A stretch of 64,000 bases of DNA from Prochlorococcus sp. AG-311-J23 (GTDB taxonomy: Bacteria; Cyanobacteriota; Cyanobacteriia; PCC-6307; Cyanobiaceae): positions 102,482 to 166,481 of the forward strand of contig QBVL01000001.1 of the NCBI GenBank assembly GCA_003284375.1. Direction: 5' to 3'. Of the stretch, positions 26,244-48,781 are shown piece by piece (positions within the stretch are counted from its first letter, which is position 1; every line of letters starts with the position of its first letter). Made by a program: the position numbers and the translations under genes. A model generated the notes under the pieces. It ran no database searches and was not told the origin of the DNA. It saw only the letters and a program-made list of their open reading frames with translations.

Positions 26244-27041
26244 TTAAAGCAAGAAAGGCAATCTTTTGCTTTCATTTTCTAAACATTTCATAGTCACCAC
26301 CAAACCTATTAAATTGAAAATTAAAATTAAAATTGAATCCTTATAATCTATATAACCTTCGATGATTGTAGTTCGCAAAGAATCTAATATTTTATATACA
26401 AAATTTATGTTTGTAATCCAAGCTATATTTCCTAAACTTTCTTTTCTATATAATATAGGAGATGTTAAGAAAACAAGCTGGAGAATTATAGGAACTAATT
26501 GAGCAATATCTGTAAAACGAACACTAATCAAACAAATAATCAACGGGAACCAATATATGAAAATAAATAAATTAATTAGTGGAATCCAAGAATAAAGAAG
26601 AAGATTATTTAGTAATGAAAATTTTAAGAAGAGAAATACGAAAAATACTAGTATAAATGATTGGATAAAAGTTTGTAATTGAAAAGACCACTCCTCGAAA
26701 GTATAGAATAGAGGCTTTAAATTCATATTCTTAATGTTTGAAGAATTATGAGAAAAAAGTTGGGGAGAATTTGATATTGAGGAACTAATTGAATTCCAAA
26801 TAACCAAACCGATTCCCAAGTAAATAAAATAAGAACGAAAATCTTGCACCGAAAAAACAGTTCCATATACAAGCCCCAAAGTCGCAATTGACAACAAATT
26901 CGAGAAACCCAACCAAAAGCTACCTAATGTAGTTCTGGCGAACCTAGCTCTTGACCTTGAGGTGGCTGTATACCACCAAGCTCTTCGAGTTTTAAACGCA
27001 AATTTAAAATTATCTAGTAACATTTTCTTTATAATAATCAT
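26244..27041 (-). CDS. ABC-2 type polysaccharide export permease (Wzm/KpsM-like)
   Basis: RSRARFARTTLGSFWLGFSNLLSIATLGLVYGTVF and six TM segments; 32-nt overlap with upstream ATPase gene. Confidence 0.88.
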   Translation of the reverse strand: MIIIKKMLLDNFKFAFKTRRAWWYTATSRSRARFARTTLGSFWLGFSNLLSIATLGLVYGTVFSVQDFRSYFIYLGIGLVIWNSISSSISNSPQLFSHNSSNIKNMNLKPLFYTFEEWSFQLQTFIQSFILVFFVFLFLKFSLLNNLLLYSWIPLINLFIFIYWFPLIICLISVRFTDIAQLVPIILQLVFLTSPILYRKESLGNIAWITNINFVYKILDSLRTTIIEGYIDYKDSILILIFNLIGLVVTMKCLENESKRLPFLL

Positions 27042-28386
27042 ATGTATGGTAATAATTTAAAGCAGATTCTAAGGGACCATCATAAACAATTGAACCATGG
27101 TTAAATACAATACCTCTTTGACAGAATTTTTTTAAAAGTTCTTCTGAATGGCTTGCTAAAAAAATTGTTGCTGCGGAGTCCATAAATTTTTTCATTCTGT
27201 CTTCAGCTCGCTCAAAAAAATCAGAATCACCTGTACCAAACCCCTCATCTATCGCGAGGCAATCATGGGGGAAAGACGTGAGAATTGAAAATATTAATCT
27301 AGCTGCCATTCCTTCACTGTAAGTCTTAATTGGGAGTGAAATATATTCACCTAATCCAGAAAAATCTATTATTTCATCTAAAAATTCTGGGAACCCATTT
27401 AAACTATGCTTTCGAAGTAAATAATGAGCTTTACATGCATCTATCCCATTCAACTCAGAACTTGTTAAAAACGTCTTATGAAGCATAGGATAAACATCTA
27501 CATGAATTTTAAGATCACCATTTGTAGGTTGGTAAATACCAGAAATAAGTCTCAAAAAACTACTTTTGCCGGAACCATTATGACCAATTAATGCAACTCT
27601 TTCACCATTTGTGATTGTTAGATCAATATTATTTAGTGCAATGATATTTGTACCTTGTTTTGATTCAGTTAATTTACCCCCCGTTATATTAATAACTTTA
27701 TCAGCGAATCTCTTTGTAATTAATCTATGTTCAGGACAATATACAGGAATAGAGAGAGAAATATTTTGCATTTCTATCGCAGGCTTAGTTAACATTTCTA
27801 CTGATGTTTCTGAAAATGATTGAATAAGTGCATTAATGTCATCTATAGATAACTTTTGATGAAGTACATGATTAAAAAAAGTTGATACCTTAACCAAAGC
27901 TTTTCCTGAAATCCAAGGATTTATTGACTCTGGTTGATATAAATTCATTAAAGTAATATTTTTACTAATCTGCTTTGTGAACAGTTCTGCCATAAAAATT
28001 TTATTTTCTAGAATAAAACAATCTTTTTCTAATTGCTTACAATTTATCAAATCAGATTTAGAATCTTCAAATAATAATTGACATACAATATCTGAAATTA
28101 AATAATTTTTAGTCTTTAAAAGACCTGCCCAGTAATTTAAACTTTCAAAATCAGCTTTTCTACCGTAAAGATTAAAAAATAACTTATTTATCTTTAATTC
28201 AAAAGATATATCTTCAGAAAAATATTTTTGATACTCATCTTGTAATGATAATTGCTTAGAGATATCCCTCAAAGATGATTTCTTTTTAGATTCTGAAATC
28301 CAATAATTCAAACCAGATGGATCTCCAGGTCTACCAAAATATGCTATGTAAAATTTCTGTAAAGTATTTGTATCAATTTTTATCAT
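27010..28386 (-). CDS. Wzt/KpsT-like ABC export ATPase with N-terminal DUF4214-like domain
   Basis: N-terminus LQKFYIAYFGRPGDPSGLNYW...; Walker A ALIGHNGSGKSSFLRL, signature YSEGMAARLIFS, Walker B CLAIDEGFGTGD, H-loop ASHSEELL; no C-terminal carbohydrate-binding extension. Confidence 0.9.
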   Translation of the reverse strand: MIKIDTNTLQKFYIAYFGRPGDPSGLNYWISESKKKSSLRDISKQLSLQDEYQKYFSEDISFELKINKLFFNLYGRKADFESLNYWAGLLKTKNYLISDIVCQLLFEDSKSDLINCKQLEKDCFILENKIFMAELFTKQISKNITLMNLYQPESINPWISGKALVKVSTFFNHVLHQKLSIDDINALIQSFSETSVEMLTKPAIEMQNISLSIPVYCPEHRLITKRFADKVINITGGKLTESKQGTNIIALNNIDLTITNGERVALIGHNGSGKSSFLRLISGIYQPTNGDLKIHVDVYPMLHKTFLTSSELNGIDACKAHYLLRKHSLNGFPEFLDEIIDFSGLGEYISLPIKTYSEGMAARLIFSILTSFPHDCLAIDEGFGTGDSDFFERAEDRMKKFMDSAATIFLASHSEELLKKFCQRGIVFNHGSIVYDGPLESALNYYHTYDYYKENVTR

Positions 28387-28398
28387 CTAAAAATAATT

Positions 28399-31236
28399 TT
28401 AAGATTCAACCTTTTTAGCTGCTGGTTGAAACATAAACATTGAGTAAATTACATTTCTTCTCATATTAATCATCATCTCTAAAAACATATCATAACCCTC
28501 ATTTTTATACTCAATCAATGGATCTTTTTGACCGTATCCTCTCAATCCAACTGATTCCCTTAAAGCATCCATAGCTTGTAGATGCTCTCTCCAAAGGGTA
28601 TCAAGTTGCTGAAGAATAAAAAACTTTTCAGCTTCTCTCATTATTCCTGGATGACTACTTTCAACTTGAGATTCTTTGAGATCATATGCATTTCGCAACT
28701 GTTCTTGTAAAAAAGCTTTTAACCCATTTACGTCTAGTCCTAAAAGCTCTTCAGGTTTAAGATCTTTTAACAAATAAATAAACTCCTTAACTTTAGAAAG
28801 TAATTTATCTAAATCCCATTCCTCTGGAGGTAAATCTTCGTTGACATATGCTTCAACAATTTCTTCCATTGTCCTTTCACCATAGCCTAAAACTTGAACT
28901 TTTAATTCACTCCCTTTAAGAACTCTTTTTCTCTCTGAATAAACTGCTTTCCTTTGATTATTCATTACCTCATCATATTCAAAGATTTGTTTTCTAATGT
29001 CGTAGTAATAGGTTTCTACTTTCTTTTGAGCTCCTTCTAATGAACGCGTCAGCATTCCAGATTCAATAGGCATATCTTCTTCAACTCTGAAAGCATTCAT
29101 CAATCCAGCCACCCTATCTCCACCAAAAATGCGCAATAAATTATCCTCTAAGGATAAAAAGAAGCGAGTACTACCTAAATCACCTTGACGACCTGCTCTA
29201 CCTCTCAATTGATTATCTACCCTTCTGGACTCATGACGCTCAGTCCCAATAACATGGAGTCCACCAACCTCTCGAACTGTTTTTTCTTCAACTTTTAAAA
29301 CAGATTCGTATTCTTTTTTTATCAGATTTATTGCAATTCTTAATTCAGAAATATTTTTATTATTGGTAGGCGTTTTTTCTGCTGCAGTTGCAATATAGTC
29401 ATCCAGTTCAATAGAACTTAAAGTCCTATCTCCCCATTCTTTTACTAATGTTGATGCTAATAACTTTAGACTTTGATCAGTTTCTTCACTTAATAAAACT
29501 GGAAATAAACTTTTCAAAGATTTTGATTGTTTATTTTTTTGATTATTTAAATTAGAGCTATCTGTATTTGCCTGAAATCCTACTGAATTAGAACTTCTTT
29601 GAAGGGGTATAGGAGGTTTGTGTCCCTCCTCAGGTTTAATCAATCTCGATGAGAGAACTTCTTTAATTTTTAATCTAGCCATATAATCACTATTACCTCC
29701 AAGAATAATATCGGTACCTCGTCCAGCCATATTGGTTGCAATGGTGACAGCACCACTTCTTCCAGCTTGAGCAACTATTTCAGCTTCTCTTTCAACGTTT
29801 TCTGGTTTGGCATTTAATAAGTTATGAGGTATGTCTTGTTCATACAAAAGCGTACTAAGTAATTCACTTTTCTCTACGCTTGTAGTTCCAACAAGCACAG
29901 GTCTTCCCTGTTTGTGCACATCAGCTGTTTCCTTCGCAACTGCTCTCCATTTTGCCGATTCCGTTTTAAAGACCTGATCAACCCAATCTTCTCTTGAAAT
30001 CTTTCGATTAGTAGGAATTACAGTAGTCTCTAACTTATAAGTTTTTTCAAATTCAACCTCCTCAGTTTTTGCTGTTCCTGTCATTCCTGAGAGTCGAGGA
30101 TATAAAAGGAAGAAATTCTGATATGTAATAGAAGCTAATGTTTGCGTCTCAGGTTGAATAGGGAGATTTTCTTTGGCTTCAATTGCTTGATGCTGACCAT
30201 CACTCCACCTTCGACCTGGCATAACTCTTCCAGTAAACTCATCAACTATGACCGCTTCCTTGTCTCGAACTATGTAGTTAACGTCCTTAGTAAAAAGTTC
30301 TTTAGCCTTTAAAGCATTTGTTACATAGTGAGCCCAGGGATCTTTTGGATCAAATAAATCGTTGACATTCAACAGTGTTTCAGTTTTAGCAAATCCTTCA
30401 TCTGTGAGAATACAGCTTCTCTGTTTCTCATCAACTTCATAATCACCCTCTGGTTCAACACCATCTTTAGTAAGCTCTTTCGCCCTAGCAAGGGAAGCAA
30501 CTATTTCTGCAGCCTTTTGATACTTCTCTTGAGCTCTTTCAACCTGCCCAGATATTATTAAAGGTGTTCTTGCTTCATCAATCAATATTGAATCCACTTC
30601 ATCAATGACACAATATTGAAAATTTCTTTGAACAATCTCGGATTTATCTGCAGCCATATTGTCACGCAAGTAATCAAATCCCAACTCAGAATTCGTTGCA
30701 TAAGTGATATCGCATTCATAATTTTTTTGTCTTTCTAAAGGCAACATAGATTGTTGAATCAAACCGACACTCAACCCAAGAAAACGATGAACTTGACCCA
30801 TCCACTCGGCATCTCTTCTGGCTAGATAATCATTTACGGTAACAACATGAACGCCTTTGCCTGTCAATGCATTTAGATAACTAGGGAGTGTGGCTACCAG
30901 TGTCTTTCCTTCTCCCGTTTTCATCTCTGCAATTTGACCTTCATGTAAAACCATGCCACCTAACAATTGGACGTCAAAGTGACGCATCCCTAAGACCCTC
31001 TTAGATGCTTCTCTAACTAGAGCGAAAGCTTCAGGCAACAAACCATCTAAAATACCTCTCTGTTCATCAAAGGTTTGAGTTTGATCAAATCTTTCCCGAT
31101 AGCTAAAAGTCCGAGATCTCAACTGGTCGTCTGTACAGGAAGAAAAATCTTCTTCAAAAATATTTATATCAGAAATTAGAGGTGAAAATCTCCTTAATTT
31201 TCTGGCGTTAGGATCACCAAGAAGCTTTCCAAGCAT
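28399..31236 (-). CDS. secA: Preprotein translocase SecA
   Basis: [16 protein letters not shown]...[39 protein letters not shown] opens at 31278 but the conserved start is likely M15. Confidence 0.97.
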
Positions 31237-31495
31237 CAAAGAACTCTTAATATAATTCAAGTATATAATAGTCCACAACTAATACATGAGCCAAAGGCCA
31301 ATAAAACTTTTATCTTCTGATTAAATAAATAATTATAATAATCAAAAAATAAGATTTAATTTAAAAATAATTAATACAATTTTCTTACAATTAAAGTCTT
31401 TGAGATTAAAAGAGACATATTAATTCAAAGATGAGGTTAATACCATTAATCCATACCAGGTTATAGTAAAGTATTGATAATTTTTTTATATAGAT

Positions 31496-32560
31496 TTGGC
31501 CAAAACAGCTCTAATTACCGGAATAACAGGTCAAGATGGAAGTTATCTTGCAGAACTATTAATTTCCAAAGGCTATAATGTTCATGGAATTCAAAGAAGA
31601 GCAAGTCATGTAAATACTTCAAGACTAGACAATATTATTAAGAATAATGATCATAAAGCTTTGAAACTGCATTATGGTGATCTTACTGACAGTGCTAATA
31701 TATTCAAAATAATACAAGAAGTTCAACCTGATGAAATTTATAATCTAGCCGCACAAAGTCATGTGGCTGTAAGTTTCGACTCGCCTGAATATACTGCTCA
31801 AACTAATGCATTAGGTCCTCTGAGGATTCTCGAAGCAATAAGAATATTAGATCTTACAAGTAAAACAAAAATATATCAAGCTAGTACATCAGAATTATAT
31901 GGCATGGTTCAAGATATTCCCCAAACAGAAAATACACCTTTTTACCCTAAAAGTCCTTATGGAGTATCTAAACTTTATGCATATTGGATAATGATAAACT
32001 ACCGAGAATCATATGATATGTTTGCCTGTAACGGTATTCTTTTTAATCACGAATCACCCAAAAGAGAAGAAACATTTGTTACTCGAAAAATAACAAGAGC
32101 ACTTACCAAAATTGATAACCAGCTTCAGGATTGTTTATATTTAGGAAATATAGATGCAAAAAGAGACTGGGGGCACGCTAAGGATTACGTTGAAATGCAA
32201 TGGAGAATGCTTCAACAAGAAAAACCCGAAGATTTTGTTATTGCTACTGGAAAGCAAGCATCAGTAAGACAATTCGTTGAGATTTCAGCTAATCATTTAA
32301 ATTGGGAAGGTATAATTTGGGAAGGTCACGGAATAAATGAAATAGGCAGAAGGAAAGACAACGGAAAAGTAGTTGTCAGAATTGATCCAAAATATTTTCG
32401 ACCCTCTGAAGTTGATACCCTTTTAGGAGATCCTAGTAAAGCACACAAGAAATTAGGCTGGAAACCAAAATATTCTCTAGAAGAATTAGTAAAAGAAATG
32501 ATTGATTCTGATCTTCTCATAGCAGAGAAAGAGTCAAAAGATAGAATCCATATAAATTAA
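31496..32560 (+). CDS. gmd: GDP-mannose 4,6-dehydratase-like SDR (TTG start)
   Basis: [73 protein letters not shown]. Confidence 0.93.
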
Positions 32561-32561
32561 A

Positions 32562-33725
32562 ATGGGAATAGATTTCACAGGCCTTATTAGTAAAAGTCTT
32601 AGTCAACATACAAAAGAAATTATAACTAATAGTCAATCCGAGACACTTACATTCTATTTCGATAATTTTATAGGAAATCAAAATATCCAATCTGATGCTC
32701 TACAAAGTTCACACAACTTAAAAGTTAATACTATTGATCATTCTGAAGAAGACATATTTTTTATACGTTCTATTTTCAACAAATTAGATGAACTTATCGA
32801 TCTCGACTTTTCGGAAACTTCTGTTAGTTCAGATTCAGATATAAATTTTCATTCCGTATTAGAATCGTCAACATTTGATGAAAATACTTTAGGAGAAATA
32901 ATAAAACAAAAAAATCAAACGAAAACCTGGTGGGATATTCTTTGGAAGAATAAAAGTGAGTTAAAAGCATTACAAATTGAAGAGAAATATACCTTAATTC
33001 ATGAAATTGGACATTCCCTTGGTCTATCTCATCCATTTGAATCACCCACAAATGATATGTGGAATACTAAGGATACTGTAATGTCTTATAACTTTTCAAA
33101 ACTAGACTGGGATGATTGGTTTAGCGAGGACGATATTAAAGCATTAATTAATATATGGGGAAGAGAGGATGACAACGGTTTTTTAAAGTTTAACTTAACG
33201 AGTGGATCTTACAAATTTATTAGAGAAAAAGAGAATAAATGCTTTTTAGAACATGAAAGCCAAAAGAAAGATATAACTGGTCTAAGTTATATAGAGTTCT
33301 CTGATAAAACATATTATGTGAAAAAAGACATTATTAAAATTTTTGATCAATTAGATTCCATTGATGATATTAGTTCCAAAGTGTACAGATTGTATAGAGC
33401 AGCATTTGGAAGATTCCCCGATGGTGATGGACTCGATTATTGGATTACAAAAAATAGATCGGGTGCAAACAGCTATCTTCAAACTGCAAAATCATTCCTC
33501 TACTCGAATGAATTCAAAGAAATTTACAACGATATAAATACCAACCAAGATTATCTTACTAAACTATACGAAAATGTTTTAGATAGAGTTCCAGATGAAA
33601 TTGGCTATAACTATTGGTTAAATCAATTAGACAATAATCTCGAAAGTCGTAGTGAGGTATTAATAGGATTTGCCGAATCAAAAGAAAATAAACAAGTATT
33701 TATGTATGAAACTGGATTGCTTTGA
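32562..33725 (+). CDS. Metzincin-type zinc metalloprotease with C-terminal DUF4214-like repeats
   Basis: LIHEIGHSLGLSHPFESP (HExxHxxGxxH) and Met-turn TVMSYN; C-terminus YRLYRAAFGRFPDGDGLDYW... and LYENVLDRVPDEIGYNYW. Confidence 0.85.
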   Translation: MGIDFTGLISKSLSQHTKEIITNSQSETLTFYFDNFIGNQNIQSDALQSSHNLKVNTIDHSEEDIFFIRSIFNKLDELIDLDFSETSVSSDSDINFHSVLESSTFDENTLGEIIKQKNQTKTWWDILWKNKSELKALQIEEKYTLIHEIGHSLGLSHPFESPTNDMWNTKDTVMSYNFSKLDWDDWFSEDDIKALINIWGREDDNGFLKFNLTSGSYKFIREKENKCFLEHESQKKDITGLSYIEFSDKTYYVKKDIIKIFDQLDSIDDISSKVYRLYRAAFGRFPDGDGLDYWITKNRSGANSYLQTAKSFLYSNEFKEIYNDINTNQDYLTKLYENVLDRVPDEIGYNYWLNQLDNNLESRSEVLIGFAESKENKQVFMYETGLL

Positions 33726-34049: not shown

Positions 34050-34778
34050 ATGGAAGCTCTAAATATACTTAATAATGAATCATTCTTACTTCTCAAAAAT
34101 AATGATTTACTTATACCCCTAATTAAAAAAATAATCCTCAATGAAGCCCTAAATAAAATAGTAATTACGAGTCAAGAGTTATCAGAATTAAAGGATATAT
34201 TCATGAAACAAAATCAACTAAAAGGTGATGATGAACTGAAAATTTGGATGAAAAAAAATAATATTGAGGAAGATAATTTAATTAATCTAATTAAGAAACC
34301 AATCCAGATAACTAAATTTTGTGAAAAAGAATTCAAACATAGAACTCATTCCCACTTCTTACAAAGAAAATCTGATCTTGATAAAGCTGTTTATAGTCTA
34401 ATTAGAGTTAAAGATCCCTTCTTAGCAATGGAAATTTATCATAGGATTTCAGAAAAAGAAGCTAGCTTCGAGGATCTTGTCAAAGAATTTTCAGAAGGAT
34501 TAGAAAAAGACACGCGGGGAGTTATTGGACCAGTTGCTATCAATCAATCTCATCCACTTGTATCTAAAATTCTCCGATCAGGTAAACCGGGAGAAATCTT
34601 CTCTCCAGTATTTATTGATCCTTGGTGGATACTCATAAGAGTAGAATCAAAAATAGAGCCAGCCCTAGACGAAAGAATGGAAGAAGCAATGTCAAATGAA
34701 CTCTTGGAACTATGGTTAACTGAGGAATCACAGCAAATTGCAAAAAACCTAGAAAAAGAATTTTCAGCTTCCAAATAA
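34050..34778 (+). CDS. Parvulin-type peptidyl-prolyl isomerase associated with type I secretion operon
   Basis: AMEIYHRISEKEASFEDLVKEFSEGLEKDTRGVIGPVAINQSHPLVSKILRSGKPGEIFSPVFIDPWWILIRVE resembles a PpiC domain; no evident signal peptide. Confidence 0.78.
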   Translation: MEALNILNNESFLLLKNNDLLIPLIKKIILNEALNKIVITSQELSELKDIFMKQNQLKGDDELKIWMKKNNIEEDNLINLIKKPIQITKFCEKEFKHRTHSHFLQRKSDLDKAVYSLIRVKDPFLAMEIYHRISEKEASFEDLVKEFSEGLEKDTRGVIGPVAINQSHPLVSKILRSGKPGEIFSPVFIDPWWILIRVESKIEPALDERMEEAMSNELLELWLTEESQQIAKNLEKEFSASK

Positions 34779-34812: not shown

Positions 34813-37737
34813 ATGGTTCTACAAAATTCAAATATCTTCAAAGGACTTAATAAAGAAGATATAAAATTATTAGAAGAAAAATCTAAATATTTGATTTATA
34901 AAATTGGTCAGCCGCTCAGTTCTAATAAAAATATTCAAAGTAATGTACTCATTATTTTAAGTGGCACAGCAAGACTACTGGGAAATGAAAATGACAAATC
35001 AATAACAATCGCAAAACTGGGAGCCGGTTCATCTGTGGGTCTTGCTTCTCTTCTTCGTGCTGAAGCATGCGAAGATGTACATGCTTCAACTGAAGTCAAA
35101 GTTATATCTATCCCAGATCAATTAATCATTGACCTTTATACAAAAAATCTTCAATTTCAAAAAAACTGCAATGATTACCTTTATCCATCTGAAGTAAAAG
35201 CAATTGTTGAGAAATTAATTTCTCGAAGTCCCAGAACAGATATTAATGTCAAAACTGCATTTAACGTTTTATTCAAAAATTCTAATATTCAAACTTTCAA
35301 ACAAGATGAAATAATACCTTTAAAGGAAGATTTTATAAATATTGTTGCTAGCGCAAACTATGAAAACAAAGAAATTGGGGATTTATTAAATTGTGAAATA
35401 AAACCTAAAGCAAGACCTCCCTTCTTTTTAAGAGTAATTCAGATACCAAAAAAGATATATGAAATGTTTATGGATAAAGCATTAACAAATAATCTCAATA
35501 TTGATAATGAGACAAATGAAAATGATGATGCGAAGTTTGCTCCACTTCTTTTAGAAAGAAGTACTGCGAATGTAGGAAGATATTCACCCCAAAAAAACAA
35601 ATCAATTATCAGAGGAAATGGAGAAATTAGAGAAGCACTTGCTTGTCTACAAATGTTAGCCAATGATTTAAATTTACCTTTTCGTAATGACTCTGTAGAA
35701 AAGATACTAAGAGATGAAATTAGAAGAGGAAAAAAAATCAATTTAGATCTGTGTGGAAACCTTTTATCCCTACTCGGATTACATGTATCAAAATCTAAAA
35801 TCAAAAAATCCTATGCTTTAAGAATGCCTGAATCTAGTCTTCTTTTATGGAAGAATAGTTTTGCGCTAGTACATAATAGTAAAAATAATCATTTAACACT
35901 TGCTTCTCCAAAAGAAGGGTGGATTGAAATTAATGAAGAGAACTTTGAAGAGAATTTTGAAGACGATATTGAATTCATAGCAGTTGAAAGAATTAATACA
36001 ACTCCTAATAAAAAGTTTGGTTTAGAGTGGTTTATTCCTTCTTTAAAAAAATTTCAAGGTGTATTAATCCAAGTTCTGATAGCTTCTTTTATTGTCCAAC
36101 TTTTTGGATTAGCAAATCCCTTATTAATTCAAGTCATTATAGACAAAGTCATTTCACAGAGAAGTTTAGATACTCTGCAAGTTCTAGGCATAGCGATGGT
36201 ATTTGTAACTATTTTAGGGGGGGTTATTGGAAGTCTAAGAACATTTTTATTTACAGAAACAACAAATCGCATTGATACCAGACTAGGGTCAGAAGTCATA
36301 GATCATTTATTACGACTTCCATTAAATTACTTTGATAAAAGGCCTGTTGGAGAATTAGGAAGCAGAGTTGCAGAATTAGAAAAAATCAGAGACTTCTTAA
36401 CTGGACAAGCTTTGACAACGATATTAGATGCAGCTTTTTCAATTATCTACATAGTAGTAATGGTTATCTATAGTTGGTTGTTAACACTAATAGCCCTTGC
36501 AGTAGTCCCCATACAAATACTTTTAACACTAATCGGAGCTCCTCTATTAAGACGTCAAATAAGGGAAACAGCTGTTGAAAACGCAAAGACTCAAAGTCAT
36601 CTGGTTGAAGTCTTGACAGGTATACAAACTGTGAAAGCTCAAAACATAGAAACTGTTAGCAGGTGGAGGTGGCAAGAACTATACGGACGCTATATTTCTC
36701 GCACTTTTGAGAAAACAATCACTGGAACAGCTTTAGGACAAACAAGTCAAGTTTTGCAGCAATTATCCCAATTACTGGTTTTATGGGTAGGAGCCTCACT
36801 GGTCCTAAGCGGGAATTTAACTTTAGGACAGTTAATTGCGTTTAGAATTATCTCCGGTTTTGTTACACAACCTCTTCTAAGATTAAGTAGTATATGGCAA
36901 AGTATTCAGGAATTGAGAGTTTCATTTGAGAGACTTGCCGATATTATTGATACTCCTGAAGAATCAAGTGAATCAGACAAATCAAACATAACATTGCCAG
37001 AAATCAAAGGTAAAGTTCTATTCAAAGAGGTTTATTTTGCATTTAAAAAGAATCAACCTGAAGTTCTCAAAAATATTGATTTAGAGATAAGTGCTGGGAT
37101 ATTTGTAGGAATTGCAGGCCAAAGCGGCAGTGGAAAAAGCACACTAATGAAATTATTGCCAAGACTTTATAATTTAAACAGAGGAAAAATACTAATTGAT
37201 AATTTTGATATAAGTAAAGTGGAGTTATATTCACTAAGAAGACAAATTGGTATAGTTCCTCAAGATCCACTTTTATTTGCAGGAACAGTTAGTGAAAATA
37301 TAGCTATTACAAATCCAGATGTCTCTGGAGATGAAATTATCGAGGCGGCTAAAATAGCTGATGCTCACAATTTCATCATGGATTTACCTCTTGGTTATAG
37401 TACTAATGTTGGAGAAAGGGGAACCTCTTTGTCAGGAGGACAAAAGCAAAGACTCGCTATTGCAAGAACTTTAATAAGCAGACCTAAAATGTTAATTATG
37501 GACGAAGCAACAAGTGCTCTTGATTATGAGACTGAGAGAAGAGTATGCGAAAATTTGAAAGAAAAATGCAAAGGGCTTACAGTTTTCTTCATAACACACA
37601 GATTAAGTACTATTAAAAACGCTGATAAAATAGTTATGATGCATGATGGCGCCGTTTGTGAAATTGGAACTCATACAGAACTAATAAATAAAAAAAGTCG
37701 TTACTACGCTCTATATCGACAACAGGAATCAAGCTAA
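34813..37737 (+). CDS. Type I secretion ABC exporter (HetC/HlyB-like): cNMP-binding-like + degenerate C39 + TM + NBD
   Basis: cNMP-like N-terminus IFKGLNKEDIKLLEEKSKYL; NBD GIAGQSGSGKSTLMKLLPRLYNLNRGKILID, GERGTSLSGGQKQRLAIARTLI, LIMDEATSALD. Confidence 0.93.
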   Translation: MVLQNSNIFKGLNKEDIKLLEEKSKYLIYKIGQPLSSNKNIQSNVLIILSGTARLLGNENDKSITIAKLGAGSSVGLASLLRAEACEDVHASTEVKVISIPDQLIIDLYTKNLQFQKNCNDYLYPSEVKAIVEKLISRSPRTDINVKTAFNVLFKNSNIQTFKQDEIIPLKEDFINIVASANYENKEIGDLLNCEIKPKARPPFFLRVIQIPKKIYEMFMDKALTNNLNIDNETNENDDAKFAPLLLERSTANVGRYSPQKNKSIIRGNGEIREALACLQMLANDLNLPFRNDSVEKILRDEIRRGKKINLDLCGNLLSLLGLHVSKSKIKKSYALRMPESSLLLWKNSFALVHNSKNNHLTLASPKEGWIEINEENFEENFEDDIEFIAVERINTTPNKKFGLEWFIPSLKKFQGVLIQVLIASFIVQLFGLANPLLIQVIIDKVISQRSLDTLQVLGIAMVFVTILGGVIGSLRTFLFTETTNRIDTRLGSEVIDHLLRLPLNYFDKRPVGELGSRVAELEKIRDFLTGQALTTILDAAFSIIYIVVMVIYSWLLTLIALAVVPIQILLTLIGAPLLRRQIRETAVENAKTQSHLVEVLTGIQTVKAQNIETVSRWRWQELYGRYISRTFEKTITGTALGQTSQVLQQLSQLLVLWVGASLVLSGNLTLGQLIAFRIISGFVTQPLLRLSSIWQSIQELRVSFERLADIIDTPEESSESDKSNITLPEIKGKVLFKEVYFAFKKNQPEVLKNIDLEISAGIFVGIAGQSGSGKSTLMKLLPRLYNLNRGKILIDNFDISKVELYSLRRQIGIVPQDPLLFAGTVSENIAITNPDVSGDEIIEAAKIADAHNFIMDLPLGYSTNVGERGTSLSGGQKQRLAIARTLISRPKMLIMDEATSALDYETERRVCENLKEKCKGLTVFFITHRLSTIKNADKIVMMHDGAVCEIGTHTELINKKSRYYALYRQQESS

Positions 37738-38888
37738 TGTCAAATCAAATTATCACCAAAACCTTGTTAAATTTTAAACAGCTAATAAAGACTTTAAAAA
37801 AACAGAAACTCATTAACAAGCAAAGTCTTGAGAAGATAAAAAAAGTTGAATTAACTAATCCTATAAAACTGGAAACAATAAAGAATCTCAGAGAACATAA
37901 AAAATATAAAAAAATTGTTGAACTGCTCAAGCCTCACAGTTTTCTAGAAAAAGGACAAGATTGGCTCGAATCAAAAGTAAATAATGAGAAGCAAGAAGTT
38001 GTTTTACGTCAATCAGCTATATGGGCACAAAGTATCACATGGACAATAATTGGTGGAACAGTTTTTGGAATTATTTGGTTATCATTGGCAAAAACCGAAG
38101 AAATAATAGTAGCTCCAGGTAGATTGGAACCAATCACGGGGGTTATTGATATTCAGATGCCGGTTGGTGGGATAGCAGAAGAAATTTTAGTAAAAGACGG
38201 AGAAAGAATAAATCAAGGGCAAGTATTAGTCGCACTTGATAATGAAATAACATTGGCAAAACTTAAAGCATTCGAAGACAATCTAAAAATCAATCAAGAA
38301 ATTTTGAGAAGACTAGAGCCTCTAACAAAAGAAGGTGCGATTTCAGAAGTTCAATATCTTCAACAAAAAAACAAAGTCAATGATCTCAAAAGAAGTGTTA
38401 TAGAGACTCAAGTGACTATGAAATATCAGAAAATCACTGCTCCAATAGATGGAATAATTTTTGACTTAAAACCAAAAGGAAAAGGTTTTGTAGCGAGATC
38501 TAGCGAACCAATAATGAAAATTGTGCCATTTGATGATTTATTAGCAAGAGTTGAAATAGACAGTCGAAATATAGGATTTATAAAAGTAGGGAAATTAGCA
38601 GATATAAGCATTGATTCATTTCCAGCTTCTGACTTTGGTGTCATTAAAGGCGAAGTCACAAAGATAGGTTCAGATGCACTTCTACCTGACCCCGCATTGA
38701 ATAAAGGATATCGATTTCCTGCAGAAATTAGATTAACTAATCAATATTTGAAAATAAAAAAAGGACAGAAATTGCCTTTACAAGTTGGTATGAGTTTGAG
38801 AGCAAATATAAAACTCAGGAAAGTGTCTTATTTGCAATTATTATTAAATACGTTTAGTCAGAAAACTGATTCACTAAGAACTCTTTAA
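37737..38888 (+). CDS. HlyD-family membrane fusion protein
   Basis: One TM helix, EEIIVAPGRLEPITGVIDIQMPVGGIAEEILVKDGERINQGQVLVALD; start overlaps ABC exporter stop. Confidence 0.92.
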   Translation: MSNQIITKTLLNFKQLIKTLKKQKLINKQSLEKIKKVELTNPIKLETIKNLREHKKYKKIVELLKPHSFLEKGQDWLESKVNNEKQEVVLRQSAIWAQSITWTIIGGTVFGIIWLSLAKTEEIIVAPGRLEPITGVIDIQMPVGGIAEEILVKDGERINQGQVLVALDNEITLAKLKAFEDNLKINQEILRRLEPLTKEGAISEVQYLQQKNKVNDLKRSVIETQVTMKYQKITAPIDGIIFDLKPKGKGFVARSSEPIMKIVPFDDLLARVEIDSRNIGFIKVGKLADISIDSFPASDFGVIKGEVTKIGSDALLPDPALNKGYRFPAEIRLTNQYLKIKKGQKLPLQVGMSLRANIKLRKVSYLQLLLNTFSQKTDSLRTL

Positions 38889-39179: not shown

Positions 39180-42100
39180 TTAAGCAATAATGAGGTCGTT
39201 AGCACCCGCATCATTAGTTGTGTCTACGAGATCAACACTAGTAAGACCAACAAGTTCAACAACCGTATCATTAGTACCTTGCTGGAAGACAATGTAACCA
39301 TCATTAGTTGCATTGTTATCAGCATCGTAAGCCATGATAACTGTTGCACCACTGGTGGTGATATTGGCTGCTAAGTAATCAAGTGCATCACTTAAGTTAT
39401 TAGGATTAATAGTCACTGCTGATGCAAAAATGTCAGCATCATCAAGAGTTAGTATTCCAGATCCAATTGCGTGAGACTTGAATACACCTGCGTCAGTACC
39501 ATTTGTAGCTGTGGTATTAGCCTGAACAGTAGGAGTACCTTCCAGGTCAAGTAAGTCAGAGAAATTAGCTGCAGTAGCTGCCTTAAATCCAGTGATTTTG
39601 TCACGACCTGTAGCTAGAGAATCACCATCAGCTATAACAACGACTTTTTGTGAATCGTTTGTTGTGCTGTTTGTACTAGAGATAGTGATTGTGTCAGCAC
39701 CTGTACCAGGAGTAATACTCAAAGCTCCGGATGTTGTCGCTTTAAGTGTTCCAGTAGTCACGCTGATGGTATCATCTCCAGCTCCTGTCAAGACGGCAAT
39801 ACCTGAAGAAGCACCAGTTGCTCCTACCCAACTACTTGCAGTAACAGTAACGGTATCAGCACCGTCTCCAGTAGTAACTGAGATGTCCTCATCAGCAGCA
39901 TTTCCTAAACCAAGTGAAGTAACCGTAACAGTTGCATCACCAGAGAAAGTAGCTGCAGAAACCGTGACCTTGTCAGTATCAGATCCTAAAAGGTTAGCTG
40001 TTACGCCACCAGTCTTGAAGGCAGTATCGAAGAAACCACCGGTCGTAAGGGAAACATCTCCAGCTGAAGCATCAGAATCAAGTGTAATTGTCTCAACATT
40101 ACTTACATATCTGAAGTTGCTATCAACAGCTGCTAATGCAGCAGCAGTCAGGGTAATGGTGTCTGTACCAGCTCCACCATCAATTGTGTTCCAAACACTA
40201 CTGCTTTCAAGATGAGTAATAGCAGTACCTGAAATTGCTTCGTTACCGCCATTACCGTTGTAAGTAGAACCAACAGTACCGAGAGCGATTATGTCCGCAC
40301 CTGCAGAACCTTTAACGGTTGAACCAGCAATCAAGTTACCGGCAATATTCAATACTCCAGGGAGAGCAGAAGCATCATAAGTTGCAGCTTTAGTAACAGC
40401 AGCATCACTGAGTGTTACGTTTGCCAAATTGGTACCAGTCATATTGATCGTGGTGACCTTGTTAGCAGTAAACGAATCAAGGATCGAAGTTAAATCAGAA
40501 TTAAGCGCTTTGGGATTAGCGTGAATGTTGATTGTTTCAAAACCATTAGCTGTTAATGCACCTGTTTCATGAGCATTTCCCAAACCGTCTCCAAGATTGA
40601 GAGTTAATGAATCTGATGTTCCGCTACTAGTTTGTAGAGCAATAGTGGTAGCGCCAATATCAGCAGAAGCTGTAACTGAAGCCGCTTGACTGGCAGTCAA
40701 ATTAGTAACGGCGTTAGTCGCACCACTCAAAATGAGTGAAGTGATCTGACTACCGATATAAGTTAAATCAAGTGTTCCCCTTAAGCTTAAAGTCTCGAAA
40801 TTCGTATACTTACCAGCTTCAGTTGCATTGTTGATGTGCCCTACATTCGTTCCAATGATAAGGGTATCTGAACCAGCTCCAGCATTTACAGAACCTTTAG
40901 TTGAGGTTGTAAAAGTAGCACCAGAGGTAATTTTGTCATCACCTGAACCACCAGTAGTTACCGTTGCAGTGTTGCTACTTAAAGCAACTTGAATTCCACC
41001 AGAGTTTCCTGAGGCATCAATAACATCTACATCAGCATCAACAGCTTCTATATCAACTGCTCCAGCACCTTTGATTGTAATTGTTGAATCAGCAGCCATA
41101 CCAGTGATAGCGGCATCATCACCCGAATTACCAGCACCGAAAGATGCGTTAGTAGTCGCATCAATGGTCAATGATGTGATCGTATTGTTTCCACTCGCAA
41201 GGGCAAGAACGTCGATCTTGTTAGCTGCACCAGTTGACTTAACAGTTGCAGTAGTTGCAGTACCAGCATTAGTTATGTCAGAAGCAGCTCCTGCAACGAC
41301 ACCACCATCAAGAGTAATGTTGACAGCATCGGTTGTAGTCTTGTAATCAACGGTTGTGGTATCTCCCATTGTTACCGTGCCATTACCTTTATGGATGTAG
41401 GTAGCGCCAGTTGGAAGATTATTTACATCAATAGTTGCTGTTGAACGATTGTTGGTAAAAGAAGTTAGACCTGAGTAATTAGTTGCATCTACTTGGACAT
41501 AGTCAGTGGTGTCAGCAGCCTCTGTGTTTACAGCACGTACTTCAAGCGCTTCAATATTTTTAGTGTCTGCAGCAGGTATAGCGATTGCACCTGTATCAAC
41601 TACTCCACTGATTGTCAACGAAAGAGTATCGGTACCTACACCTCCATCGACTTCGTCATCAACAGTAAAAGTACTTCCTGACTGAGGAGTTGCTCCTCCT
41701 GCAGCAGAGTAAACAATAGATCCTTTATATGTATCTGCGCTGCTTGAACCAGTTAAAGTATCTGAGCTAGTTGTTAGGTTCGTTGTTGTTGTAGTAGTAG
41801 CATCTGAACCGGTTGTCATCGAAGTGACAGTTGAAGTTATTCCAGCAGCTGTGTGCGCAGTAGCGCTAGTAATTGTACCTAAATATGTTTGCGCAGATGT
41901 GAACGCAGTACTTGTTTTGAAAGGACTAGTAGTAGCTGGCTGATATGCAAGAATTGCAGTTGTGCTTGCTTCAACTTCAGCGGTGTAAGCAGCAGCAGCA
42001 GCGACCTTATTAGTTAGAGCCGACGCGTCTAGTGCTCCTTGAGCTGTGTTTCCAGAACTAGGATTTGAAGCAGACCAGATAAGGTCAGTAGCTACATTAG

Positions 42101-42392
42101 AGAGATTTAAATTTCCTTTTTCAATTTCCTGTGTCCAATAAAGAAGACCAGTAGCGTCCGCACTGCGACCAAATAAATTTAAGTAAAGCTGATTTACCTG
42201 CGCTTCAACTGTTTTAGAACCAACTGTTGAAGTTTTGTATTCGTCTTGAGCGTAAATCTTGTCAGCAAATTCTCTTGCAGTTGATACGCCGCTTGAGCTT
42301 GAAAGCCAGTACTTGATACCAGCTGGATCACCGGGACGCCCAAAATAGGCGATGTACTGCTGTTGGAGTTGGGTTGAGGTTAGTGTGGACAT
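39180..42392 (-). CDS. Large RTX-like surface/S-layer-type protein with N-terminal DUF4214-like domain; likely type I secreted
   Basis: 1070 aa with no Cys seen; N-terminus LQQQYIAYFGRPGDPAGIKYW; RTX-like GGSGDDKI, GAGSDTLII, GGAGTDTITL, GDGADTVTV, GAGDDTISV; Thr/Ala/Ser/Asp rich; no N-terminal signal peptide. Confidence 0.85.
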   Translation of the reverse strand: MSTLTSTQLQQQYIAYFGRPGDPAGIKYWLSSSSGVSTAREFADKIYAQDEYKTSTVGSKTVEAQVNQLYLNLFGRSADATGLLYWTQEIEKGNLNLSNVATDLIWSASNPSSGNTAQGALDASALTNKVAAAAAYTAEVEASTTAILAYQPATTSPFKTSTAFTSAQTYLGTITSATAHTAAGITSTVTSMTTGSDATTTTTTNLTTSSDTLTGSSSADTYKGSIVYSAAGGATPQSGSTFTVDDEVDGGVGTDTLSLTISGVVDTGAIAIPAADTKNIEALEVRAVNTEAADTTDYVQVDATNYSGLTSFTNNRSTATIDVNNLPTGATYIHKGNGTVTMGDTTTVDYKTTTDAVNITLDGGVVAGAASDITNAGTATTATVKSTGAANKIDVLALASGNNTITSLTIDATTNASFGAGNSGDDAAITGMAADSTITIKGAGAVDIEAVDADVDVIDASGNSGGIQVALSSNTATVTTGGSGDDKITSGATFTTSTKGSVNAGAGSDTLIIGTNVGHINNATEAGKYTNFETLSLRGTLDLTYIGSQITSLILSGATNAVTNLTASQAASVTASADIGATTIALQTSSGTSDSLTLNLGDGLGNAHETGALTANGFETINIHANPKALNSDLTSILDSFTANKVTTINMTGTNLANVTLSDAAVTKAATYDASALPGVLNIAGNLIAGSTVKGSAGADIIALGTVGSTYNGNGGNEAISGTAITHLESSSVWNTIDGGAGTDTITLTAAALAAVDSNFRYVSNVETITLDSDASAGDVSLTTGGFFDTAFKTGGVTANLLGSDTDKVTVSAATFSGDATVTVTSLGLGNAADEDISVTTGDGADTVTVTASSWVGATGASSGIAVLTGAGDDTISVTTGTLKATTSGALSITPGTGADTITISSTNSTTNDSQKVVVIADGDSLATGRDKITGFKAATAANFSDLLDLEGTPTVQANTTATNGTDAGVFKSHAIGSGILTLDDADIFASAVTINPNNLSDALDYLAANITTSGATVIMAYDADNNATNDGYIVFQQGTNDTVVELVGLTSVDLVDTTNDAGANDLIIA

Positions 42393-42854: not shown

Positions 42855-43835
42855 GTGTGGAAATCATTCCAAATGAAACCTAAAGCGTTAGTAATTGGAT
42901 GTTCGGGGCAAGATGGTTCATACATGGTCAAATCACTCCTTCTGAAAGGTTACGAAGTAATTGGCACATCAAGATCAAAAAAAGTACTCCATTCAAATCA
43001 CAAAACCTTAGGAATCTCGAATCAATTTTTAGTTCATCAAGTTGACAATCTTAATTCCAGCCAAATAAGTGACTTAATAGTTACTGAAAAACCAAGCGAA
43101 ATATATAATTTAGCCGCACAATCTTCTGTTGGAAAATCGTTCAAAGAGCCATTAAAAACAGAGCAAAGTATCGTAATGGCTTCAGAGATTTTATTGAGTA
43201 ATTGTAGAAAACATAATTTTAGTGGAAGAATCTTTTTTGCTGGAAGTAGCGAGATTTATGGTTTAACTAAAAAACCAGCAAAAATAGACTCTGCTTTTAA
43301 TCCACAAAATCCATACGCTGATGCAAAGCTTGAGAGCATGAATTTAGTCAAAAAATATCGAAACGAATATGGAATTAAAGCTGTAACAGGGGTTTTATTT
43401 CCACATGAATCCCCTCTGAGAACCGGGCAATTTGTAACAAAAAAAATTGTCGATGCAGCCAAGATTTGTAATCTAGATAAATCTCATAAAATAGAATTAG
43501 GAAATTTAAATATTTCTCGCGACTGGGGATGGGCAGAAGAATATGTAGAAGCTATGTACTTAATAAATAACAGAAAAAACGGAGTGAAAGATCACATAAT
43601 ATGCACTGGAATACTAACTAGTCTGGAAACTTTTATTGATAAAGTGTTTAAATTATTTAACTTAAACTGGCAAGATCATATTATAATTAATAAGAAATAT
43701 TTTAGATCAACTGATATCGAAAAAAGTTTCGGAGATCCAAAACAAATTTTCAATGATTTACAATGGAAGAGTAAAAAAGATATTGATAGTATAATTAAAA
43801 ATCTAATCAACAGTAATATTTGTCAAAAGATATAA
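42855..43835 (+). CDS. GDP-mannose 4,6-dehydratase-like SDR (second paralogue)
   Basis: ALVIGCSGQDGSYMVKSLLLKGYEVIGTSRS, FAGSSEIYG, YADAKLESMNLVKK, GVLFPHESPLRTGQFVTKKI. Confidence 0.85.
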   Translation: MWKSFQMKPKALVIGCSGQDGSYMVKSLLLKGYEVIGTSRSKKVLHSNHKTLGISNQFLVHQVDNLNSSQISDLIVTEKPSEIYNLAAQSSVGKSFKEPLKTEQSIVMASEILLSNCRKHNFSGRIFFAGSSEIYGLTKKPAKIDSAFNPQNPYADAKLESMNLVKKYRNEYGIKAVTGVLFPHESPLRTGQFVTKKIVDAAKICNLDKSHKIELGNLNISRDWGWAEEYVEAMYLINNRKNGVKDHIICTGILTSLETFIDKVFKLFNLNWQDHIIINKKYFRSTDIEKSFGDPKQIFNDLQWKSKKDIDSIIKNLINSNICQKI

Positions 43836-43863: not shown

Positions 43864-46800
43864 TTACTGATCGTATTTCTTCTGACTTTCTATACCTCTA
43901 ATCAATCCCTGCAATCTCTTACCTATTTTCGAAAATCTATGTTGCGAAATCCATTTTTCTTTAAAATCTTGATGATCTTTTGATAAAAAAGATCGATATC
44001 CAGAATCAAAAAATTGCTTTATACCATCTTTAATAAGTTCTGAACTGCAGCCAGGCAAATGGTAGGTAACATCCTTTACATCTTCGAAAATTTGTTGTGG
44101 TGTAATCGCGACTGGTGTTCCAGAAGCCAGAGAGTGTCTAACAGATGCACTGGAGGATTCATTGGTTGATTGATATGGTAGAACAATTAAATCCATTTTA
44201 GTAAGAATATTTAGCGAGTTTTTTTCAGTCATATAATCCGTTTGAATATCAATTATTTTATCTAAACCTAATACTTTTATCTTTTCTTTTAACTCTTCAA
44301 CAAAGTAATCGTAAGTGAAGTTATACTTAGCTGTTAACATAGTTAAAGTCATATTTGGATAAATATCTTTAAGCATGCCCACAGCTTCAATTAATTGAAT
44401 AAAGCCTTTATTAGGTAAGGCGAATCCGAATGTGGCTAGCTTAATTGATTTAAACCTCCAGTTAAATCTTCGACTAAAATTTTCAGATTTAGGGAAATAA
44501 TCAATAATTCCGTGAGGAAAGAGAGTGGCCTTTTTATCCAAACCGATACTTTTCAACCGATTTAAATCTGATACTGTATGAACTAGTAAGCGATCACATC
44601 TTTGAATCTCAGGGGAAAGATTCTTAAAATTTAATTCTGTTGAAGGTGCAATTGTAGAATGCAAAATAATGATGACCTTTATATTTCTTACATATAACTG
44701 GTTTAAGAAATCTTTAAATAAAGTATAATTAAAAAATCCGTAATTAAATTGTATTAATAATGTTGAAATAGAGTTCGAGGTAATTGATACTAATAATTCA
44801 TTATAATTTTGAACTTCTGATGGATTCATATCCCAGCATCTAAATACAGAATCATTATCTAAAGATTCATTTTCACCATTAAATGGTGCAAAAATTAATT
44901 TATAATCATGAATATATTTTAAAATATTTTTAGAATAAGATGCAATACCGCATCTAGAATTCCATGTAGTTACAATCCCGATTCTTGGAATATCAAAATC
45001 AGAAGTAGCTAGAATTTTATCAACAAAGTTAAGATTTGATTTAGCTACATTATCCCATTTGCATCTTTCAATCGTCTTCTTTGCCTGAAGTGTTTTTTGA
45101 TAGATTTCATCCTTATTGGAGGTGTATATTTCTCTCATAATAGAAGACAAATGATCTTTAGAAGGTTCCGCCCACGATGAGCAAGTAAGGCCAAAATGCG
45201 TTTTCGAATAACAATATTTAAAATCAATTAGCCATGAATTATAACTATTACAAAAGTCAAGTTGACCTCCAAAACCAGTTGTTATTACTGGCAAGCCAAA
45301 CTTCATTGCCTCGCCAATAGGCAATCCAAAACCCTCCCCATAACTGGGGGCGACCAATGCGTCACTCAGTTGATATAAAGCTAGAATTTGGTCATCGGTA
45401 TAATCCTCTTCTATAAAACAAATATGAGGTATATTTTTGGTGTTAGATCTAATTGATTTCAACTGATCTTTTACATCATTATGAATATTTGGAATAGTTT
45501 TAATTATCAAAGATACGTCGTCATCTTCTTTAAAGGAAGCACAATATGATTCAATTAAAACATTAACTCCTTTTCTCGGAAAACATGATGAAATATGTAA
45601 AAAGCAAAAATTATTTACACTAATGTCAAGATCAATATCTTCGTCTTTAGAATTTATATGATCAAGACCCAAAGACGAAATTTTAATCGGTATACTTAAA
45701 CCATTATCAATTAATGTTTTCTTCACATATTCTGACATAACTGTAATACCATCTAAGTTTTTATTAAATTCATCTATCCAAGATGATGGGAACTGAGATT
45801 CTTCCCAACCATAAGAATGCAATATTTTCACCATACCATTCATATCAAAAACACGAGGAGGATAAAGATTTCTTGATACTATGCTTGGTAAAGATTTCTC
45901 ATTTCGTGACTTTCTATATATCTGATCTATATCCTTATTTATACTAAGGAACTTCTTCGAAGGAGAATAATCAGAATCACCATCGGTTGAAGTAATAGTT
46001 ATATCTTGATTTATTTTATACATTGATCTTATAAAATTTTTATTCAACAAAGCCAAACTATAATTACTATCAAATGGTCCTTCAATTCTCCAACTTCTAC
46101 CTGGAATTAATTTCTTAAGTCTTCGTTTAAAATCTAGAATCTGCTCGTCAATCAGTTCTAGTGAAGATGATACTTGTTTAATAAGAATATTATCTTTTGA
46201 TCCTTTATTAGTTGTATTAATTACACTTTTTACTCTACTAAGAAGAATTTCACGAGCAATAGAGTTTTCATTCATCTTATCGGCAGTTGAATTAATTAGC
46301 TTAGTTGATGAAATCTTTATCAAAGCTGAGATTGCCCTTTTTGAGGTCTCAGTCCATGAAAATTTCTTAACCGCAGATAGGCCATTTTGAATTAGATGTT
46401 CTTTAAATGATTTATCGATTAAAGCTTTTTCAATTAATTGAGTTAATTCCTCAATATCAGTTGGATTAAATAAAGCTTTTCTATCTCCAATAATCTCTGG
46501 AACACTTGTTAAATTAGATCCAATTACTGGGGCACCACAACTCATTGCCTCCAAAACTGGCAATCCAAAACCTTCATGTAAAGATGGAAAAACAAATAAA
46601 GAGCAGTGAGAATAAAGAGAAACTAGCTCTGAGTCACTTACATATCCAAGAATAATTATCATCTCCTTTTGCAAATTATTCTTTGTTATGCATTCTTCGA
46701 GCAACAACTTCTCAGCGGATAATAATTTTCCAGCTAAAACAAGTTTGTATTCACTTTGTAAGTGAGATGGAAGTTTTGCATAAGCGAAAATTAGAGATTT

Positions 46801-47520
46801 AATATTTTTACGGGCATCGCCTGCTCCTGAATAAAAAATATACTTTTCTAAAGGCTCCTCTTTTAATTCATCTAAATAAAATTTTTCTTGTACTTTATTA
46901 AATAAGCTTTGATCACATGCTGATGAAACATTATAAATCTTTTTGTTAGATATACTAGTATGATCACTTACTTCTTTTAAAGTAGATTCAGAGATAGCTA
47001 AAAAGCCGTCCAAAGAATGTAATTGTTGAATTTTTTCACTGTAAAAGACTTTATATAAAGGATTATTATCTAAATATGTTGATGACTGAACTAGAGGTAT
47101 TAAATCATAAAGAATTGTAGTGATAGGTGGCAAATTATATTCATTACTTAATCCAACCAGAGCATTATCAAAAAATCCCTCAAAAAAACTTGTCAACAAA
47201 ACAACGTCAACAGATAAAGAAGCTATGGCATAAGAACGTAATTGTTTGGCGAACCAATCCTTAGAGGCTTCTAAACTTGATTCGTGCTTGAATGGACCAG
47301 GAGAATACCAATTAAAGTAGTAAATATTAAATTCTTGATTGGATATAAGAGATTGAAAATCAGATCGAGCATCTTTTAAAAACGGATTGGCAAATAGAAT
47401 ATATTCATGGTCAGGATGATTCTTAATTAAATTAAAAATTAGTTGATAAGAATATCGACCTATCCCTCTTAATCTACTTCCCTCTGTTTGAAGCCCCTGT
47501 ATATCAATTAATATTTTCAT
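43864..47520 (-). CDS. Multidomain glycosyltransferase with three GT4-like modules
   Basis: GT4 signatures [28 protein letters not shown] and [27 protein letters not shown]; third module [29 protein letters not shown]. Confidence 0.9.
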   Translation of the reverse strand: [1218 protein letters not shown]

Positions 47521-48781
47521 CTTTCAATTCACCCATAAGTTCTTTATAATTTTGTTTTGCAGCATCAGAAGATTGATAAAAAGGAATTAACATATCATTA
47601 ACTGGTGAAGAGTCATCAACAGACTCCTGCAGCTGGTCTAATTGATCAGTTATTTTTAGAAAATACGATTCTTGACCAAAAGCCTTAAGAAAATATGAAA
47701 GTGGTTTAAATATGATATACGATTTAGAGGAAAAAACAAAGCTTCTAACAAAAGGAATCGATGATAGTATTAAATACATTTTACGAAAAAGCTTAGTAAA
47801 TATTACTTTGTATATGTTGATAGAGTATTTAATTATTTTCTTAGCTTTGCCTAATACTCTAATAGAGTAAGCAGAATAGGGTAAATAAGATTTATTAATT
47901 TGCTTCTTTATTAAAATTTGCTCACTTTGCAAAGATAGATTTATTTTTTTTAAGTGATTTACTTCATTCTCTAGATTAATGAGTGAATTTTTTAAAAAAG
48001 AAATATTTTTCATCAGTTGAATATCAAAATCCTCTGATGCTTGAAAAGTAGATATTCCAATATTTAGATTTGATTCCCATTTAGATATGTGATTAGAAAT
48101 TGATTTCATATCTGTAGAACTATTTATTGCCAAAATCAGTAAATCTTGGGCTACACCATTTAAAACTCTAGTAAGTGTAAAATTAGATTCTCCACTAAGT
48201 GGTCCTCCATTCAAATAATAGTATTTAACCTTATCAAATCCTAGATGTGAAAGCAGATATTGCATATAATCAGGGTTTATAGGATTTATATGAGTAGGGT
48301 CTAAGTAAAAAGATTTCGTGGAAACAATCAAATTATCAATACTTGGTGTTTCGAAAAGACAAATACCATTATTACTTACTATTCTACGACATTCTTTAAA
48401 AAGGATCTCTATTTGATCATGCGAAAGATGCTCAATAACATGAAAGGCAGTCACCAAAGATATTGAGTGATTAGGAATCTTCTGAAGTATTTCTATCGCA
48501 TCTCCTTTAAGCACAGTTAAGTTATATTTATTACTTTCCTTAATCATCGCTGAGTTTATTTCTATACCTCTAGCTTCAAAACCTTTTTTCGAGCATTTCT
48601 GTAGCCACTCTCCTCTACCTGATCCTATATCTAATGCAGTAGGATTATTAGAAATACTAAAAATATAATCTAAAAGTTCGTCATAAATAGCTAGCTTTTC
48701 TTCAACTTGTTTTCGTGAACCTCGAAATTTATTTTCAAAGTCAAAATAAAGATCTGGCATATACTTTATTACTTTCACCAA
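47504..48781 (-). CDS. SAM-dependent methyltransferase with C-terminal coiled-coil
   Basis: ALDIGSGRGEWLQKCSKKGFEARGIEIN, AFHVIEHL, LDPTHINPINPDYMQYLL; heptad-rich FLKNSLINLENEVNHLKKINLSLQSEQILIKKQIN; overlaps glycosyltransferase gene by 17 nt. Confidence 0.85.
   Translation of the reverse strand: MVKVIKYMPDLYFDFENKFRGSRKQVEEKLAIYDELLDYIFSISNNPTALDIGSGRGEWLQKCSKKGFEARGIEINSAMIKESNKYNLTVLKGDAIEILQKIPNHSISLVTAFHVIEHLSHDQIEILFKECRRIVSNNGICLFETPSIDNLIVSTKSFYLDPTHINPINPDYMQYLLSHLGFDKVKYYYLNGGPLSGESNFTLTRVLNGVAQDLLILAINSSTDMKSISNHISKWESNLNIGISTFQASEDFDIQLMKNISFLKNSLINLENEVNHLKKINLSLQSEQILIKKQINKSYLPYSAYSIRVLGKAKKIIKYSINIYKVIFTKLFRKMYLILSSIPFVRSFVFSSKSYIIFKPLSYFLKAFGQESYFLKITDQLDQLQESVDDSSPVNDMLIPFYQSSDAAKQNYKELMGELKDENIN

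Follow-up and report, generated by a model that had tools for sequence, protein, structure and literature searches.

The locus described here raises the question of why an ATPase of polysaccharide export, a cytosolic protein, should begin with a domain of a kind carried by secreted surface proteins. We analyzed a 64,000-nucleotide stretch of DNA from Prochlorococcus sp. AG-311-J23 (the window, within which all positions below are counted), where a wzt gene of 458 aa (27010 to 28386, minus strand; ATG at 28386) joins an N-terminal surface-protein-type domain to the nucleotide-binding domain (NBD) of a Wzt. To our knowledge, known export-coupled recognition by Wzt relies on a C-terminal carbohydrate-binding domain (CBD or CBM), and our literature search returned nothing on a DUF4214-ABC fusion, nor on DUF4214 in Prochlorococcus. 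Our best explanation is that the domain was captured by the exporter and plays a putative glycan-recognition role on it, a tentative reading to which we assign a probability of roughly 0.48. If true, this would be a second way of recognition, based on a helical domain of secreted surface proteins and arisen on an exporter that had none. For DUF4214, an uncharacterized domain widespread in the surface proteins of cyanobacteria and proteobacteria, the fusion also provides a concrete setting that can be tested.

The wzt fusion is a real gene, conserved in one Prochlorococcus clade

The NBD (27010 to 27777, minus strand; residues ~204 to 448) is complete, with a Walker A motif (GHNGSGKS, 268), a signature motif (TYSEGM, 355) and a Walker B motif (LAIDE, 377), and together with the neighboring ABC-2 permease it identifies the protein as a Wzt-type polysaccharide-export ATPase. 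A sequence-only reading of this DNA had described a complete Wzt/KpsT-type NBD followed shortly by the end of the protein, and both points held: the protein ends at residue 458, 10 residues beyond the NBD match (448), so it has no C-terminal domain, and the ~150-residue CBD that follows the NBD in the O9a and Aquifex type is absent. Profile and PDB matches place the NBD with the compact, galactan/TagH-type Wzts. More specifically, profile NF050108 matched residues 204 to 448 (E 2.5e-53, 180.8 bits), the best PDB match was likewise of the compact galactan type (E 6.5e-42), and the permease, wzm (26244 to 27041, minus strand; overlapping the wzt frame by 32 bp), matched the profile of the galactan-type exporter permease (E 2.3e-26). 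Both scores fall below the equivalog cut-offs of NF050108 and NF050109 (180.8 versus 400 bits for Wzt and 92.9 versus 380 bits for the permease); judged by profile scores, NF050108 is the nearest relative of the fusion Wzt rather than a family that includes it. Compared with the compact galactan-type exporter, solved as 9QFX and related entries, the fusion resembles it in NBD and permease type and in lacking a C-terminal domain, but adds an N-terminal domain of ~200 aa. A full-length AF2 model of the ATPase (pLDDT 49) left the NBD unfolded and gave no domain arrangement.

Because the source genome is a 55-contig assembly that is 77% complete, a sequencing or assembly error could have joined two genes. 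This explanation is refuted by the recurrence of the same ~460-aa frame in 30 genomes of the clade, single-contig near-complete ones included, and in one and the same locus in every case where flanking DNA was retrieved. The fusion occurs in at least 30 of the 41 genomes of the genus-level group, the source genome among them, and in 16 of the 17 with a completeness of 90% or more; in the seventeenth, no Wzt was found. Its length is 451 to 467 aa, except for one 495-aa frame and one truncated by a contig end. We also observed the fusion twice, inverted, on one 15-kb contig of a single-cell genome (G155:C31, L062/L063), apparently an assembly palindrome.

The N-terminal domain is homologous to the start of a surface protein encoded at the same locus

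The N-terminal part of the fusion scored 28.4 bits against DUF4214 (PF13946) on its own and 25.5 bits within the whole protein, above the Pfam gathering cut-off of 23.2 bits, which confirms the domain type proposed from the sequence. The proposed size of ~100 residues needs correction: the Pfam match (residues 48 to 91; 28114 to 28245, minus strand) covers only part of a domain of ~200 residues (1 to 203; 27778 to 28386, minus strand). Residues 1 to 174 align without gaps, at 32% identity, with the N-terminus of a 1,070-aa surface protein (blastp E 5e-31 when only the two sequences were compared and 1.6e-30 on the scale of the genome), and an AF2 model of the domain is all-helical (pLDDT 78.6, pTM 0.79). 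All 30 Wzt copies have a YxPxSxxPWxxG loop (residues 150 to 161; 27904 to 27939, minus strand), as against 9 of the 33 surface-protein copies, and the aromatics of this loop seem suited to sugar stacking. Net charge is −0.9 in Wzt copies versus −8.3 in surface copies, whose acidic, Ala/Thr-rich composition the Wzt copies lack; we counted this difference for glycan reading.

The homologous surface protein (39180 to 42392, minus strand; N-terminal domain, residues 1 to 174, at 41871 to 42392) lies in a locus with secretion and glycan genes. Directly upstream of wzt, across a 12-bp gap and on the same strand, is secA (28399 to 31278). It is followed on the plus strand by a GDP-mannose 4,6-dehydratase (31496 to 32560; TIGR01472 over cut-off), a matrixin-type metalloprotease ending in DUF4214 (32562 to 33725; found in some of the genomes with this locus), a PpiC-type peptidyl-prolyl isomerase (34050 to 34778), an HlyB-like type I secretion ABC transporter (34813 to 37737) and an HlyD membrane-fusion protein (37737 to 38888). 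Since the last two stand alongside the 1,070-aa protein, we take the latter to be a putative substrate of this type I secretion system (T1SS); it found no match in a PDB sequence search. Beyond it lie a second GDP-mannose-dehydratase-like enzyme (42855 to 43835, plus strand), a protein of 1,218 aa in which three stretches are of GT4 glycosyltransferase type (43864 to 47520, minus strand) and a methyltransferase of 425 aa, long in its C-terminal region and, like the Wzt domain, genus-restricted (47504 to 48781, minus strand). The order cysE, wzm, wzt, secA, GDP-mannose dehydratase, PpiC isomerase, T1SS transporter, HlyD, surface protein, second dehydratase recurs in 12 further genomes of the genus; the multi-glycosyltransferase gene comes next where the fetched stretch extends that far, with the methyltransferase farther on in the same direction. 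The protease gene is absent or moved in some genomes, and one fetched region ended before wzm-wzt. In each of six near-complete genomes of the genus, this wzm was the sole Wzm found.

The domain was added to a compact Wzt

Elsewhere in the genus, DUF4214 closes the C-terminus, ending no more than about 10 residues from the end in ten proteins scanned (L135-L149), whereas in the fusion a domain above the same family cut-off opens a cytosolic ATPase. Carriers of C-terminal DUF4214 include RTX, cadherin, trypsin, cyclophilin, protease and esterase types, and DUF4214 may be a widely used module for surface anchoring or linked to secretion. Beyond the genus, every inspected carrier of the ~200-aa domain was a longer protein with no ABC domain (200 genomes of the family and 387 of the phylum). 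The 387 phylum genomes yielded no other ABC fusion of the domain; candidates of 364 to 550 aa turned out to be secreted-type proteins. Among the plasmid matches listed, only DUF4214 and other extracellular-type annotations appeared, and the domain had no match in phages. The observation that an otherwise extracellular domain type sits here on a cytosolic ATPase is thus borne out by the other carriers examined, and the arrangement is conserved.

The domain had also been proposed to stand in place of the Wzt CBM. In 29 genomes from 19 other genera, the Wzt NBD that matched best lacked the N-terminal domain. At ten Wzt loci of other genera the ATPase stopped 2 to 12 residues after the NBD in all ten cases and was compact in eight, and none carried a DUF4214-type N-terminal domain; extended Wzt frames in some other genera reflected upstream read-through rather than domains. 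Since the other-genus Wzts inspected are compact and have neither CBM nor DUF4214-type domain, the domain was added and nothing was replaced, contrary to that proposal. The fusion remains comparable to the Wzts with a C-terminal CBD (E. coli O9a, Aquifex aeolicus) in that a Wzt ATPase carries one extra, non-NBD domain, with a methyltransferase gene and a multi-glycosyltransferase gene nearby. It differs in that this domain is N-terminal, predicted to be all-helical, of DUF4214 type and only putatively glycan-binding, while a C-terminal CBD is missing.

The Wzt domain was captured once and has been retained under selection

In a phylogenetic tree, the Wzt copies of the domain formed one clan (support 99/96) that excluded every surface and outgroup copy, indicative of a single capture. 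The rooting of this tree is not fixed; transfer from surface protein to Wzt would be the simpler direction because the surface form is more widely spread. Sequence comparison indicates that a compact, CBM-less Wzt in the clade's ancestor gained, once, the ~200-aa domain that fronts type I-secreted surface proteins, including the one at the same locus, and that from then on the domain passed down vertically with its exporter, the only O-antigen-type ABC exporter found in these cells.

Pairwise identity averages 48% across the domain and 74% across the NBD, with the domain lower in 435/435 pairs, and in the 14 closest pairs dN/dS is 0.20 to 0.37 for the domain and 0.05 to 0.11 for the NBD. The Wzt domain is therefore under purifying selection but less constrained than the NBD. 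Its evolution at ~3 times the rate of the NBD (dN/dS about 0.25 versus 0.08), the close tracking of NBD divergence by its own (Mantel rho 0.87) and the functioning of compact relatives without it would all fit a structural or inherited add-on, captured by local recombination and kept only to stabilize or position the NBD, with no recognition involved. We consider this improbable, given that the domain was captured once, was then retained for long and persists undecayed in at least 30 genomes with an invariant loop motif. Within the clade, the Wzt domain that has diverged furthest (G056:C1:1175024-1175587) has lost the first motif, DPxGxxYW.

Divergence of the Wzt domain does not follow that of the domain on the same genome's surface protein (Mantel rho 0.10, p 0.20; partial 0.01), and identity between the two is 32.2% both within and between genomes. 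A strain-specific ligand common to both domains was thereby rejected, none of the three tests (Mantel, partial Mantel, within versus between genomes) showing a signal. Surface domains are of at least two types among related strains. These results also bear on export coupling, in which the Wzt and surface-protein domains would compete for, or sense, one partner and so link O-antigen export to the supply of surface protein. The same domain on both proteins and their conserved common locus speak for such coupling, but the two copies within a genome do not co-vary. In addition, substrates of a T1SS normally remain unfolded while in the cytosol, which would keep the surface domain from being displayed there, and we regard this explanation as very improbable.

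Fold comparisons make protein docking a serious rival

In a Foldseek search of the domain model against the PDB, the first 21 matches all came from phycobilisomes, most of them from linker domains (E no better than 0.2, probability 0.98 at best; none significant alone). A profile of the N-terminal domains weakly retrieved the ApcE and CpcG linkers, and hhalign against PF00427 members scored 19.4, above 100 column-shuffled controls (maximum 18.25), at a probability of just 2%. Phycobilisome linkers are protein binders. The Wzt domain may have a helical arrangement weakly resembling that of the linker family, the functions being unrelated as far as known.

The Caulobacter S-layer protein RsaA was compared in the same way. 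Its helical N-terminal domain (NTD; PF19198, 6T72) opens a T1SS-exported surface protein, the position that the surface-protein domain has in the window. RsaA was not among the best 50 of 94 PDB fold matches of the Wzt domain model (Foldseek; model pLDDT 78.6). The Pfam model of RsaA_NTD matched none of 12 domains and, across 41 genomes, gave one sub-threshold match, located elsewhere, with a positive Caulobacter control; hhalign of the Wzt domain against RsaA_NTD scored 14.6, within the shuffled null. At the level of sequence, homology to the RsaA NTD was therefore rejected, as the PDB profile search, hhalign (shuffled and reversed controls) and PF19198 were all negative. The best fold match of the Wzt domain was a viral structure of 427 aa, F8TV35 (Foldseek E 1e-5, TM 0.67 over 205 columns).

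The faint linker-like fold and profile signal, the lack of a sequence relation to RsaA and the failure to track the surface domain make docking a serious rival: the helical domain would bind another protein, such as the multi-glycosyltransferase polymerase, the methyltransferase or a protein with a like domain, and hold the synthesis machinery at the exporter with no sugar contact. We nevertheless judge docking to be somewhat unlikely, as no linker similarity is significant by itself and, in a related genus, a Wzt fused to a sulfotransferase domain suggests that glycan-acting modules do become joined to the N-terminal end of Wzt, a point that we counted for glycan reading.

Glycan reading as the proposed role of the domain

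Glycan reading is the most likely mechanism for the Wzt domain. The domain would face the cytosol beside the NBD dimer and, prior to export or in its course, touch the lipid-linked glycan or a cap that this glycan carries. It would recognize or retain the substrate in the manner of the C-terminal CBM on other Wzts, with the YxPxSxxPWxxG loop as the likely contact. The feature read would be clade-wide, perhaps a cap from the co-distributed methyltransferase, and not a strain-variable part of the chain. For this mechanism we counted the surface-protein origin, the distribution of the loop, the single capture, the purifying selection and the conserved locus. Against it we counted the absence of co-variation with the own-genome surface domain, the lack of an RsaA_NTD match, both in sequence and among the 50 fold matches listed of 94, and the faint phycobilisome-linker-like fold. 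Compact Wzts, moreover, export without any such domain, and Ca2+, which RsaA needs, is scarce in the cytosol. RsaA provides both a precedent that we counted in favor, in that its all-helical N-terminal domain binds O-antigen (PMC6978808), and a difference, in that this binding takes place with Ca2+ (PMC8828063), outside the cell and on a domain with no detectable sequence relation to that of Wzt.

A broader form of glycan reading would have one recognition domain act on both sides of the envelope, anchoring the surface protein to O-antigen outside, while inside the exporter ATPase checks the same polysaccharide or cap before export; we hold this to be rather unlikely.

The methyltransferase occurs in 11/13 sampled genomes of the genus and, weakly, in 1/138 others, and we counted this for glycan reading; the same co-distribution would also be expected from two single-origin features of one lineage. 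In G056, the genome with the most diverged Wzt domain, no methyltransferase gene was found. The anatomy of the methyltransferase and the triple-GT4 protein recalls the chain terminator/polymerase pair WbdD/WbdA; the PDB gave no WbdD match.

Two second Wzts with long N-terminal regions were also observed. One (G054; L185:1697-3796, minus strand) has a similar-looking N-terminus of ~330 aa with no Pfam match there. The other, the Wzt-type ATPase of a related genus cited above (G075; L186:1262-3046, minus strand), carries an N-terminal Sulfotransfer_3 domain of ~330 aa over cut-off, and in both cases wzm lies directly downstream.
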